From: Filobasidium wieringae
Lineage: Eukaryota > Basidiomycota > Tremellomycetes > Filobasidiales > Filobasidiaceae
Direction: 5' to 3'
Assembly: GCA_001600055.1 (NCBI GenBank)
Contig: BCIV01000001.1
Span: 186,001 to 250,000, forward strand
DNA: 64,000 nucleotides
The notes beneath the pieces were generated by a model. The model saw only the letters and a list, made by a program, of their open reading frames with translations. It did not search any database and was not told the origin of the DNA. The first letter of the stretch is position 1. Every line of letters starts with the position of its first letter. The position numbers and the translations under genes are program-made. Shown piece by piece: positions 10,265 to 37,854 of the stretch.

Positions 10265-12323
10265 TTATTCGACATCCTGACCGTAAAAGTGATCCACCAT
10301 CGGTTTGATCCTCAACATGAGCGCGTTGAAAACGGGACTGGTCGTATTCTACATCGCCCACGCACACGAGGGACGTCGAAATCCAGTGACCGAGTGAGTG
10401 TCAGAGAACGAAAAGCGATTCACGCGTGTGGACTTACGACCCGGTTGACGTTCCCTCCGACGGTAAACACGCTTGAATCATCTTCCACCCAACCCCTCGC
10501 GTTCGCCCAGACTTCTCTCCGTCGAATCTCCCTCTGTTGCTCCGTCTCTGCCCAAGCCCCCTGTCCCTGTCCCTGTGCGGCCCGATGGATGAGGAAGGAG
10601 GGAGCGGGGGAAGGTTTCCATTGTGCTTTCAACGCGTCGACGCGGGAGGGGGAATGTCGGACGTGATGTTGAGCCGAGGAGAGTCCCGAGAGGTTGTTCG
10701 TCGTGTGATAGAGGTCGGGGTTTCTGCGTGAACGCGAACGAGAACGTGAAACGACGACGACGATCAGTTTCCTGTTGTTCGCGCGGGTTAGGATCAGGGC
10801 CAGGTCTCGCGGCGCGCTCACTTTCCCGGTTTATCCCTCAACCCGCCCTTTTCGTGCTGAGCGGCGATCAAGATGTATTCCTGTAACGCCGCTCGGTTGA
10901 AGAGCATCCCTTTCCCCTCGTTCTCCTCCCATGCTTCGTCCCCCGTCGTCTGGTTCTCATCTTCATCGAGCACCTCTTCCCTTTCCTCACGCTCACGTTC
11001 CTCGCCGACCCCCAAGACGCTCTCCAGGACGGCAAACAACCCACCGACCCACCATCCGTAACAGCCATCGACCAGCTTGTTCGTCCGGCCCCTGAACCCG
11101 CCGCCCTCGATGGCGTAGGATTGTTGCATCACCGCCCATCGGAGGGCGGCTTGGAGGTCGATCGAGGCGGAAGTCGAGGTCGAGGGTCGTATCTGTGCTT
11201 CACCCTGTTGTGACGCTTGTTGAAGAGGTCGGAGTAAGAACCAACTAAAGACCGCACAAGAGGTATAACCCCCGTGAGCTTCTGCGGAGGCCGTTCCCAT
11301 TCCCATTCCCGCTGCCGATCCCATTCCCATTCCCTCTGTGCCTGTCATTCTCGGTTCCGACGATGTGGATGCTGGCGATCCGGACGTGCCAGGGGAAAAA
11401 GAGCTGGGGAAGGAGGCGGAGGCGAATCCCCCTTCGTACGTCTGACAGCTGAGCGGTGGAGAGCGAGAGCGAGCGAGGAGTGATCAGGGAAAAGAGAGCG
11501 ATGAGCCGTGAGACCAGAGAGGGAGCGACTCACTTGGCCAAGAACTGTGATGTCCCGTGTACGAGTTCCGGGGTGAGGATGTCCAGTAGGGTGGCGCATG
11601 TTAGCATGCAGTAGATCCCCCTGTTCAGCGGACGATTGTCGAAGTTGCGAGTCAGCTGGCGGCGAAGGTGGGAAAAGGATAAAGAGACCACGCGGGACTG
11701 ACCTGACATCGACCTCCCCACCGTGACAGACGACGAACCCGCCATCGGGTCGTTTACAGCTCAAGAAGAAGCCGTACAGTTTCCCCCTATCCACCCTCTC
11801 CCAGGCCTTTTTTCCCATCTCGCTCGTGCCCCCTCCCGCTTGGCTCGTATCCCCACAGAGGATCGCGAGGGTCATGATGCTGGCATAAGTGGGTAAGAGG
11901 TGGGCGATATGCCCCGGCGGGGGTCCTCCACAGAACCCCCCCTCGGGATGTTGGAAGGCGAGAACGGTCTCGATCGCTCGTCGACGCATCTCATCGTCCA
12001 GCCCGATCCCGAGGAGATCGAACCCGTGCAGGGCCCAGTAAGTGAGCCAGGGCCTGGATGCGTCCAGGGAGACGTAGGGTGCGGGGAGGGAGAGGAGGTG
12101 TTTCCCCAGATAAGCCGCGTGGGCCGATCGGTTGAGCGTCTGAGGCGGCGAGGGGGGGTTGGTGGTGAGGGTTTGGAGGAGGAGTTGTTCCACTTGGGCC
12201 TAGGGAGTGCGAGTGCGGCGGGTGAGCATTCGAATGGACGCGGGTGCGGGGGGACTCACCTGGGACAGCGATGATTCTGTGTGTACGTCGTCCGTTGGGT
12301 ACGGCGCCATCGGTTGGTTCCAT
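10265..12323 (-). CDS. RAM1: protein farnesyltransferase beta subunit
   Basis: This is the catalytic, zinc-binding subunit that, with the alpha subunit RAM2, adds farnesyl to CaaX proteins such as Ras and lipid mating pheromones. Prenyltransferase repeats are clear: SRPWLTYWALHGFDLLG, HPEGGFCGGPPPGHIAHLLP, CKRPDGGFVVCHGGEVDVR, GIYCMLTCATLLDIL, and FRGRTNKLVDGCYGWWVGG, which includes the zinc-ligand Asp and Cys. GGLRDKPGKNPDLYHTTNNL carries the Tyr-His of the active site and separates it from the geranylgeranyl subunit CDC43. It ends VDHFYGQDVE. Five or so exons. Species-specific inserts include a Gly-Met repeat (GMGMG) and an acidic Glu/Arg run. The start at 12323 (MEPTDGAVPNG) is the first Met in frame; the first acceptor is uncertain. 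It is divergent from ELP4. Confidence 0.93.
11290..11340. repeat. short tandem repeat (CCCATT-like) within RAM1
   Basis: An imperfect hexamer repeat in the coding region encodes alternating Gly-Met residues on the minus strand, forming a low-complexity insert in the farnesyltransferase beta subunit. Confidence 0.6.
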
Positions 12324-28538: not shown

Positions 28539-30646
28539 ATGTTCCCCCTCCGTAACCTCTTCTCAATCGCAGCTAGACTCCCCCGTCCAGCTATCTTCAA
28601 CTATCGACCATACAGCACCCTCAAGGGCGATCCGACTACCCCGAAGTTGATCGGACGACATGAAATCCAGCGAACGGAAGATCTTCTCGAACGAGTCGCC
28701 GCGACGAATAGACCTCAGGAGAAAAAAGACATCATCGCCCAGTACCCGGATTTGAGGGGGGTGATCGATCTGTTCGTATTCATTCCTCTTCTCCACCTCA
28801 TTTTTCCCGTGACTTATGGCTGACGTGTGCTCGCTGAGATAGCACGCTGGATAAACATTATCGATACAACTTGAAATCCGGCTCGGTGTTCACCTTCATA
28901 TCGAGCAACACTCATCTCCTCCACACCCCCATCTCACCCGATACCCCCTCCGACATCCCGCTCGCCCAACTCCTCCAAGGTTTACAGGCGGGGACCATGA
29001 ACGCATCCCATATCGTGGATTTCCTACGGGTCAACGGTCTTCTGGAAGGATGCCGGAATTATCTGGATGTGATGGGTAGAGGACGGAACGGGGATGGGAG
29101 TGGGGGGTTGACAGAGCTGCAGGTGTTCTTCAGGGTTTTGGATAAGAATCTGAAAGTCGGGTTCGGGACTAGGCTTATGAAGGGGGTCGAGAAGGTTCCT
29201 ACAGAAGCAGAAGGGCCGGCAATCAAACCTGAAGGGGATGAGATGTTGGGGGGTCCTGCGACTACCTCAACTCGGGAAGACCTGGAATCAGACCCCCTCC
29301 CGGCAACGATGCATCTCTCCCCTAGTTTGGGCAAGACGATCCTCCTCCCGGATCTCCCCAAACTATTCCAACCTCAATCTCATCCCACCTGGTACGCCTC
29401 TCGTAAGCTCGACGGCGTCAGGTGTTTAGTAGTAGTGGACGTCGTGATCGAAACCACACCGAACGTTTCGAGGGAAACCGACTCAACAGTGAGGGTTGAG
29501 TTCTTAAGGGGACAAGCATACTCACGCACAGGGAAGGCTTTCGCTACTCTTGGTAAAGTCACGCAGGACATCGAATCGGTCTGCGACGGATGGTCTGGAC
29601 TTGCGACTTTATTAAAGGACGAACCTTACTTGACGTACTCTGAATCCGAGATCGACGGTCGAAACTCGAGCAGAGGGATCAAACGATTCGTCCTCGACGG
29701 GGAAACCTGTATCCTCCGCCCTTCTGTGGAAGAAGGAGGCGCCCTCGTTGAGGATTTCAAAGAGATCGTCAGCTTGGTGAGGAGGAAACAAGGGACCATT
29801 CCTAACGTGTCCATGTTCCTATTAGACCTGCTCCCATGGAGTTCGTTCCACCCGGGAGATCTTGGGCAAGATTTCCCATTGAGGGCGAAAACGTTTGGGG
29901 ATCGGTTGAAGGATTGCGAGGCGTTTCTCACTCGGATGAAGGAGGTCAAGAAGGGGGAAGAGGGGACGATCAGAGCGCTTGGGCAGAACGTGGTAGGGTG
30001 TGTAGAGGATGTGGAGGGACTTATTGGGACGGCAGCGGAAGAAGGGTGGGAGGGGTTGATCCTACGTAAAGACGTCGCTTATGAGGGCAAACGAACGCAA
30101 GTCGACATCTCCCTTCCCTGGCTTCCCGAGGCAGGCGATGCTTCATTGACTGATCTGCGACGGTTCGAATGACAGTTCAAACTTGAGGAAATACAAGGCA
30201 TGGATGGACGCGGAGTATACCGTATTGGACGCTCAGTTCAATACCATGCGTCTTCCCATCGACGGGGTCTATGCGGATCGGATGGCCCTGGCTAACGTGT
30301 GGATTGGGCATAAAGGTGAGCCGGTTTGTGCACCAGGCGATAGAGGGGAAGCTGATCCGTCTCGAACGACAGGGGTGAGAGTCAGTATCGGAAGTGGATT
30401 CACGGCCTCGCAGAGACTGAAATTCGCCAAGGATCCTAATGCCATCGTGAGTACTTCGTATCATCTCCTTTCGCTCCTTACCCCTTCCTGAGCGGTCGAT
30501 TCGGTGACACACAGATCGGGAAACAAATCACGGTAGAATACTTTGGAGAGTCTACCAGTGATTCGAGGGATAAGAGAGGGGGAGGGGTCAGTTTGAGGTT
30601 TCCCAGGATCAAACATATTTGGGAAGATGGGAAAAGGGATATATGA
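28539..30646 (+). CDS. ATP-dependent DNA ligase, probably mitochondrial
   Basis: The N-terminus MFPLRNLFSIAARLPRPAIF is a classic mitochondrial presequence (Arg-rich, no acidic residue), followed by Tyr-Ser-Thr at the likely cleavage area. An N-terminal ligase-like helical domain (FFRVLDKNLKVGFGTRLMKG) precedes the nucleotidyltransferase core: motif I ASRKLDGVRCLV (adenylated Lys), motif III KRFVLDGETCIL, motif IV EEGWEGLILRK and motif V SNLRKYKAWMDAEYTVLD. An OB-fold part ends VSLRFPRIKHIWEDGKRDI. Four exons (28539-28771, 28843-30096, 30176-30446, 30515-30646) sum to 629 codons; intron 2 must use a GC donor. Motif I, KLDGVR, differs from the YKYDGERAQ form of nuclear ligases, so this looks like a separate organellar ligase. 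A role in mtDNA repair is inferred. Confidence 0.82.
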
Positions 30647-37176: not shown

Positions 37177-37697
37177 TTATTGAGCGGCGGGAATGACGTC
37201 CTTCTTCCAAGGGCCTGATAATCAACGAGCAAGTGTGAGTCTGATGATCGAGAGAATCAGAAAATGAGAAAACTTACAAGGACCGTCAACCTGGTTCATA
37301 CCGCATTCGGGCTCCACAGTGGGAACGGGCTCGGGAGCTGCCTCACGCTTCTTCCAAGGGCCTGTCGTATAGAGAAAATCGGTTAGGCTGACGAAAATGG
37401 ACTGGTTCATGATGGTAACTTACAAGGACCGTCAACCTGGTTCATACCGCATTCGGGCTCCACAGTGGGAACGGGCTCAGGGGCAGGTTCGGGAGCGGCC
37501 TCACGCTTCCAAGGACCTGTTGAACGATATCCCATCAGCCATGACTAGGTGGCAAAGGATGGGAAATGAAACGACTCACAAGGACCAGAGACCTGGTTGA
37601 AACCGCAGGCAGGAGCGACGGTGGGCTCGGGAAGAGGAGCGGCGAAGGCGGCAGTGGCCAAAGCGATGATGGTGAAGAGAGTAGCGGCGAGCTTCAT
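37177..37697 (-). CDS. secreted Kex2-type repeat peptide precursor (alpha-factor-like / quorum-peptide-like)
   Basis: Four exons (37580-37697, 37424-37516, 37278-37361, 37177-37214) sum to 111 codons, 110 aa. A signal peptide MKLAATLFTIIALATAAFA is followed by three copies of C-G-[F/M]-N-Q-V-[S/D]-G-P-C-P-W. Copies are separated by Lys-Arg (PWKREA, PWKKREA). Each copy follows a run of X-Ala/X-Pro dipeptides: AP-LP-EP, EA-AP-EP-AP-EP-VP and EA-AP-EP-VP. Removing these would leave 17-mers TVAPACGFNQVSGPCPW and, twice, TVEPECGMNQVDGPCPW, with a Cys pair that could form a disulfide loop. Kex2, Kex1 and Ste13-type enzymes process yeast alpha-factor this way. The last copy ends PWKKDVIPAAQ instead of a KR site. 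All introns are phase 1 and interrupt the second Cys codon. No family is recognised; function as a secreted signal is inferred from architecture. Confidence 0.8.
37271..37332 (-). repeat. 62-bp direct repeat, copy in exon 3 of peptide precursor
   Basis: It is identical over 62 bp to 37417-37478. It covers the splice donor and most of the peptide-coding part of the exon, showing a recent tandem exon duplication or gene conversion. Confidence 0.9.
37417..37478 (-). repeat. 62-bp direct repeat, copy in exon 2 of peptide precursor
   Basis: This is the partner of 37271-37332, with start-to-start distance 146 bp. The flanking introns and the dipeptide spacer differ between the copies. Confidence 0.9.
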
Positions 37698-37846: not shown

Positions 37847-37854
37847 TATATATA
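37847..37854 (-). promoter_or_regulatory. TATA box of the peptide precursor gene
   Basis: TATATATA lies about 150 bp upstream of the start codon at 37697, next to CATG and CGTC motifs. Together with strongly biased codons this suggests a well-expressed gene. Confidence 0.45.

Follow-up and report, generated by a model that had tools for sequence, protein, structure and literature searches.

A putative Kex2-processed repeat protein with a Ste13 signature and one repeat per exon in Filobasidium wieringae

The gene and its precursor

On the minus strand of the window (the whole 64,000-nucleotide stretch analysed), four exons and three GT-AG introns at 37177–37697 give, in the spliced reading, a 110-residue precursor (Table 1). 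Its start at 37697 and its stop at 37177 coincide exactly with those given by an earlier, sequence-only reading of this DNA. GTRAGT donors and AG acceptors bound all three introns, which are 62–63 nt long, and each of the three splits the codon for the second cysteine of a repeated core after its first base.

Table 1. The precursor gene and a possible promoter element, in window coordinates.
Feature	Position	Strand	Description
TATA-like motif, possible core promoter element	37847..37854	(-)	TATATATA; ~150 nt upstream of the start codon; found by eye
Exon 1	37580..37697	(-)	leader, AP-LP-EP, core 1 up to first base of second Cys codon
Intron 1	37517..37579	(-)	63 nt, GTGAGT...CAACAG, phase 1, in second Cys codon of core 1
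Exon 2	37424..37516	(-)	93 nt, phase 1-1: CPW (end of core 1), KR, EA-AP-EP-AP-EP-VP, core 2 to second Cys codon
Intron 2	37362..37423	(-)	62 nt, GTAAGT...CGACAG, branch-like CTAAC, phase 1, in second Cys codon of core 2
Exon 3	37278..37361	(-)	84 nt, phase 1-1: CPW (end of core 2), KKR, EA-AP-EP-VP, core 3 to second Cys codon
Intron 3	37215..37277	(-)	63 nt, GTAAGT...TATCAG, phase 1, in second Cys codon of core 3
Exon 4	37177..37214	(-)	CPW (end of core 3), tail KKDVIPAAQ, stop

The precursor begins with a hydrophobic leader, MKLAATLFTIIALATAAFA (residues 1–19, 37697–37641), which by hydropathy and letters only resembles a signal peptide with an AFA/A site. Directly after it comes a first spacer, APLPEP, made of three dipeptides (AP-LP-EP), and then core 1, TVAPACGFNQVSGPCPW (residues 26–42), which occurs once and is followed by KR. 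The second spacer, EAAPEPAPEPVP, comprises six dipeptides (EA-AP-EP-AP-EP-VP) and connects that KR to core 2, TVEPECGMNQVDGPCPW (residues 57–73), which is followed by KKR; the third, EAAPEPVP, comprises four (EA-AP-EP-VP) and leads into core 3, again TVEPECGMNQVDGPCPW (residues 85–101), after which the tail KKDVIPAAQ completes the precursor. Each core is 17 residues long, carries a Cys-x8-Cys loop and ends in Cys-Pro-Trp. The dipeptide counts (3, 6 and 4) and core sequences of the sequence-only reading hold in the spliced frame, as does the alpha-factor-like anatomy it described, with leader, repeated cores, dibasic sites and X-Ala/X-Pro dipeptides all seen. Its statement that Lys-Arg separates the copies is right for cores 1 and 2; cores 2 and 3, however, are separated by KKR, and KKD rather than KR follows core 3.

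Kex2-processed repeat proteins (KEPs) were defined by Le Marquer et al. 2019 (PMC6339444). Here, three 17-residue cores have dibasic KR and KKR between them, the 19-residue hydrophobic leader stands, by hydropathy and letters only, in the place of the N-terminal signal peptide, and XA/XP dipeptides placed directly after KR/KKR provide the STE13 signature; judged by these features of its sequence, the locus is classed as a KEP with a Ste13 signature. The precursor is not of the kind that gives rise to basidiomycete mating pheromones: it ends in PAAQ, has no cysteine four residues from its end and carries a signal-peptide-like leader.

Whatever their length (6, 12 and 8 residues), the spacers lead to one predicted 17-residue frame in all copies, which agrees with the earlier idea of a variable spacer and a fixed product. 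When residues were permuted within each spacer, the X-Ala/X-Pro register arose by chance with P = 0.20, 0.030 and 0.071, respectively; the product over the three spacers, 4e-4, is overstated, because a duplication links spacers 2 and 3. Cell-surface proteins often contain X-Pro runs, and no peptide has been observed so far, both of which would suit a proline-rich secreted or cell-surface protein that is unprocessed or partly processed and whose dibasic sites and X-Pro runs are incidental. Such a protein is nevertheless improbable, because all three spacers hold the two-residue register up to Thr-Val, even the one directly downstream of the predicted signal-peptide cleavage site, and because KR or KKR stands between the copies.

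Codon use and exon layout

The codon adaptation index of the precursor is 0.626, compared with 0.291–0.549 for 12 comparison exons, the highest of which (0.549) belongs to a sugar transporter; the reference for these values is small, consisting of seven histone fragments (337 codons) from the same genome. These fragments represent 7 of the 10 histone loci retrieved (12 matches): an in-frame stop excluded L025 and L028, and L032, apparently a variant histone, was not used. The comparison exons were chosen by us: nine come from the 30 window frames of 170 residues or more, and three from the kexin and peptidase loci. When the gene was recoded synonymously 2000 times at the codon frequencies of the comparison exons, not one recoding reached 0.626, and the same test without exon 3 again gave 0 of 2000 at the observed value. 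Since its codon bias exceeds that of the 12 comparison exons, the gene is apparently strongly expressed.

Exons 2 and 3 are alike at 79 of 81 aligned bases, with 15 further alignment columns taken up by gaps, and copies 2 and 3 are identical over their 51 core bases, synonymous sites included. Copy 1 differs from both at 9 of 17 codons, 5 of these synonymously. The introns after these exons behave differently: introns 2 and 3 are alike at 40 of 52 aligned bases in a gapped alignment, a level that 39 of 300 shuffles with fixed splice-site ends also attained, so exons 2 and 3 appear to have been kept alike or homogenised while the introns were not.

These observations bear on whether the locus is a gene at all. 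Chance open frames between splice-like sites would be consistent with the lack of a detected homologue and with a model known from DNA alone, but they are extremely improbable in view of a codon bias above all 2000 recodings, of copies 2 and 3 that are alike in exons and not in introns, and of three introns at one codon position. The locus is almost certainly a real gene. The identity of the cores of copies 2 and 3 (37278–37516) beside unlike introns suggests, as a separate matter, exon-confined homogenisation or strong codon constraint.

The gene is laid out with one repeat per exon. Exons 2 and 3 both start and end in phase 1 and are therefore symmetric. Any donor half-codon (T) fits any acceptor half-codon (GT or GC); because these half-codons are interchangeable, skipping, gaining or losing exon 2 or exon 3 keeps the frame and an intact Cys-Pro-Trp. 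Judged from the sequence, the symmetric exons would offer a simple route for repeat number to change in evolution, and possibly by splicing. A literature search on duplicated exons in precursors of this type brought up no paper with the term 'symmetric exon' or 'exon duplication', which is weak evidence that the arrangement is undescribed.

Relatives, host and neighbourhood

Searched against 5.8 billion proteins, the whole precursor drew 1389 candidates, none at E <= 1; a 45-residue frame of exon 2 with intron read-through, such as a prokaryotic gene caller might report, drew two from the same proteins, again none at E <= 1. Short, intron-split exons are probably poorly represented in this protein set; that the set includes fungi was confirmed by a neighbouring ligase-like exon, which found fungal relatives in it. 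In the viral collection four stretches matched a pattern and none was confirmed, and among solved structures there was no match to the precursor up to E = 1. Pfam returned sub-threshold matches only, with no MF_alpha or MF_alpha_N up to E = 1; these models cover the yeast type of alpha-pheromone, not the filamentous-ascomycete type. No second copy of the gene was found in its own genome, and four short strings of core letters had no occurrence in a literature text search. By title and start of abstract, no Tremellomycete precursors of this kind emerged beyond three KEP papers, and supplementary tables, which lay outside that search, may list this precursor.

The ligase-like exon (28838–30169) has its best named matches in proteins of Filobasidium floriforme, a Tremellomycete, at 41% identity, and a farnesyltransferase beta exon has its best match among solved structures in the Cryptococcus neoformans enzyme (2e-41, versus 3.6e-24 for the next). 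Both matches of these neighbouring exons support the basidiomycete, Tremellomycete-like host that had been proposed from the letters. We also observed a protein 93% identical to the ligase-like exon on a 66.9 kb JGI metagenome contig (P0001), which, to judge by this identity, probably comes from a close relative of this fungus. The farnesyltransferase beta subunit exon (11348–12199) belongs to the CaaX pheromone pathway and lies ~25 kb from the precursor gene, which is probably a coincidence.

Of the 30 window frames of 170 residues or more, 19 were scanned against Pfam, as were 10 shorter ones close to the gene. The scan matched prenyltransferase (the farnesyltransferase beta exon), PAXNEB, sugar transporter, apolipoprotein O, p34-Arc, peptidyl-tRNA hydrolase, translin and RING finger, together with DNA ligase and Mog1 below the cut-offs; most scanned frames had no Pfam match. 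The matched frames are of housekeeping or transport kinds, no biosynthetic cluster was visible among the scanned window frames, and Rfam and tRNA searches gave no matches in the window.

A Kex2/Ste13-type signal in a basidiomycete is not new as an idea: it was published in 2019, when Ste13-signature KEPs were reported in basidiomycetes (PMC6339444). Trimmed, Trp-ending peptides from such precursors were later detected by mass spectrometry in Pleurotus fruiting bodies and in Pichia (Vogt et al. 2022, PMC9769878), and a further study gives a mean of 1.00 KEP per Tremellomycete strain and one KEP type common to Talaromyces and Cryptococcus (PMC7329392). The precursor resembles the basidiomycete STE13-signature KEPs, as described in the available text of PMC6339444 and PMC9769878, in its signal peptide, repeated cores, dibasic sites and X-Ala/X-Pro dipeptides, and several of their cores likewise end in Trp. 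It differs from the basidiomycete KEPs in those texts in its core, for which no match was found and which is 17 residues long, ends in Cys-Pro-Trp and has a Cys-x8-Cys loop. Each repeat here sits on an exon of its own, with an intron inside the core; the published KEPs were compared by their precursor features. What this gene adds is the core sequence, the predicted 10-residue loop and the exon layout.

A closer comparison is offered by Trichosporon oleaginosus, which we take to be Cutaneotrichosporon oleaginosum under its present name, a Tremellomycete. Its core, QSWGGCGGRGTPCW, was likened to Sordariomycete alpha-pheromones (PMC6339444), and it shares with ours two cysteines, a Trp C-terminus, a Ste13 signature and a basidiomycete host. 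Compared over the core only, as printed in the part of that paper available, it has Cys-x6-Cys-Trp with a PCW end against Cys-x8-Cys-Pro-Trp here, with little further identity by eye. The comparison with Qsp1, drawn by the sequence-only reading, proved weak: Qsp1 too is a small secreted fungal peptide, with a Pro-Trp end according to that reading, but it is freed from secreted proQsp1 by the cell-associated protease Pqp1, matures outside the cell and is imported by Opt1, and no Kex2-repeat layout is described for it in the available part of the source (PMC6571750).

Maturation and possible roles

The enzymes for such a precursor were sought exon by exon in a genome of 19.76 Mb in 33 contigs, and the resulting locus counts are lower bounds. 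One kexin locus was found, with a best match to yeast kexin at 1.2e-121 and a P_proprotein match; the open frame after the kexin match holds, by eye, a hydrophobic segment. One DPPIV_N locus was found, whose catalytic exon matches dipeptidyl peptidase IV at 5.7e-53. In its 5' part, with exons taken singly, a stretch that by eye is acidic precedes a hydrophobic segment, FIAVLCCILSLAVVIGVFS, and in these two features the locus resembles the type-II Ste13 enzymes. Serine carboxypeptidases gave 14 matches on five contigs, and genes for these three types of enzyme are present in the genome.

By analogy with established Kex2, Kex1 and Ste13 biology, the precursor would enter the secretory pathway; kexin, given its established specificity, would cut after KR/KKR, a Kex1-type carboxypeptidase would trim away the basic residues so that the peptide ends in Cys-Pro-Trp, and the X-Ala/X-Pro pairs would be removed by a Ste13-type dipeptidyl peptidase that stops at Thr-Val. 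In the 17-residue peptides so released, the two cysteines would probably close a 10-residue loop. KK-Asp is a weak Kex2 site, and its position after the last core is a point against this model. We consider it probable that the precursor is processed about as described, the cleavages and the disulfide being those that known maturation enzymes and pathways predict. The mature peptide would then act outside the cell, most likely signalling to conspecific cells.

In its whole layout the precursor is like the ascomycete alpha-type precursors, whose products are ligands of Ste2, and filamentous-ascomycete alpha-pheromone cores often have two cysteines and a Trp near the end. Some cores of this form, similar in this respect to ours, appear in PMC6339444. 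The precursor is unlike them in having a different core and a basidiomycete host, and no STE2-type receptor was matched in the genome search, in which the control genomes were likewise silent; the peptide is most likely not a mating pheromone of the ascomycete Ste2 type. The genome holds two loci for STE3-type receptors, the kind known for lipopeptide pheromones, and no candidate receptor for the peptide came to light. PF08015 pheromones had no match in the genome, with control genomes again silent, and the regions surrounding the two STE3 loci (9.5 and 9.0 kb) held no single-exon CaaX candidates of 20–90 residues. The second STE3-like locus (L008 and L010, C5:736536-737167, minus strand) stands apart from the stronger one on C9 and is a possible non-mating receptor.

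The dikaritin RiPPs (ustiloxin type) also have Kex2-cut repeated cores, and a cyclic precursor of this sort, with cores further modified by UstYa/DUF3328 oxidases, shares the Kex2-repeat layout seen here. DUF3328 genes lie near 22% of surveyed KEP genes. Among 76 KEPs with homology to the six putative basidiomycete pheromones of PMC6339444, 17 have them nearby, whereas ascomycete-type pheromone KEPs almost never have such neighbours (PMC7329392); because of these 17, the basidiomycete KEP class is perhaps not uniformly a signal type. Tremellomycetes, however, are excepted from the DUF3328 association (PMC7329392), and the cyclic-peptide precursors named in the available part of PMC6339444 are without a Ste13 signature. 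UstYa oxidases, a dikaritin feature, had no match among the window frames scanned and none in the genome, where the control was silent too and absence is not proven. A dikaritin-like precursor is, on this evidence, highly improbable.

The same processing could also yield a peptide that acts on other organisms, as an antimicrobial or an ecological modulator. Mycotoxins and interaction factors are among the published KEP peptides (PMC6339444, PMC9769878); the deletion of six KEP genes in C. cinerea gave no axenic phenotype, and the authors lean towards a role in relation to the biotic environment (PMC9769878). A small, predicted disulfide-looped peptide and strong codon bias would fit such action as well. 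Against it, Ste13 signatures are best known from alpha-pheromones, and the scanned window frames show no biosynthetic cluster; common antimicrobial peptides are cationic, unlike the cores here, which range from neutral to acidic (TVEPECGMNQVDGPCPW contains three acidic residues but no basic one). Action on other organisms is unlikely, and by analogy a signal to self is more likely. We see a slight balance in favour of a signal over another secreted bioactive, again by analogy, and we regard it as reasonably probable that the locus encodes a KEP with a Ste13 signature whose product, a Kex2/Kex1/Ste13-trimmed and looped 17-mer, would serve as a self signal outside the cell.

Alpha-pheromone-like precursors in basidiomycetes are unexplained, as the mating pheromones of these fungi are made another way, and the three KEP papers (PMC6339444, PMC7329392, PMC9769878), in the parts available, name no receptor or phenotype for them. 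It is conceivable, though doubtful, that Tremellomycetes use a second peptide language beside their farnesylated pheromones, made by Kex2 and Ste13, built on a disulfide-looped 17-mer and heard through an undescribed receptor; splicing could control the dose of the 17-mer, since every repeat has a symmetric exon (phase 1-1). The gene is compact, apparently strongly expressed and predicted to give a defined product of 17 residues, which makes it convenient for testing the role of these peptides, the more so because the searches turned up a single kexin locus and a single dipeptidyl peptidase IV locus (both lower bounds). Its layout of one repeat per exon would also allow tests of how peptide precursors come to differ in their number of repeats.
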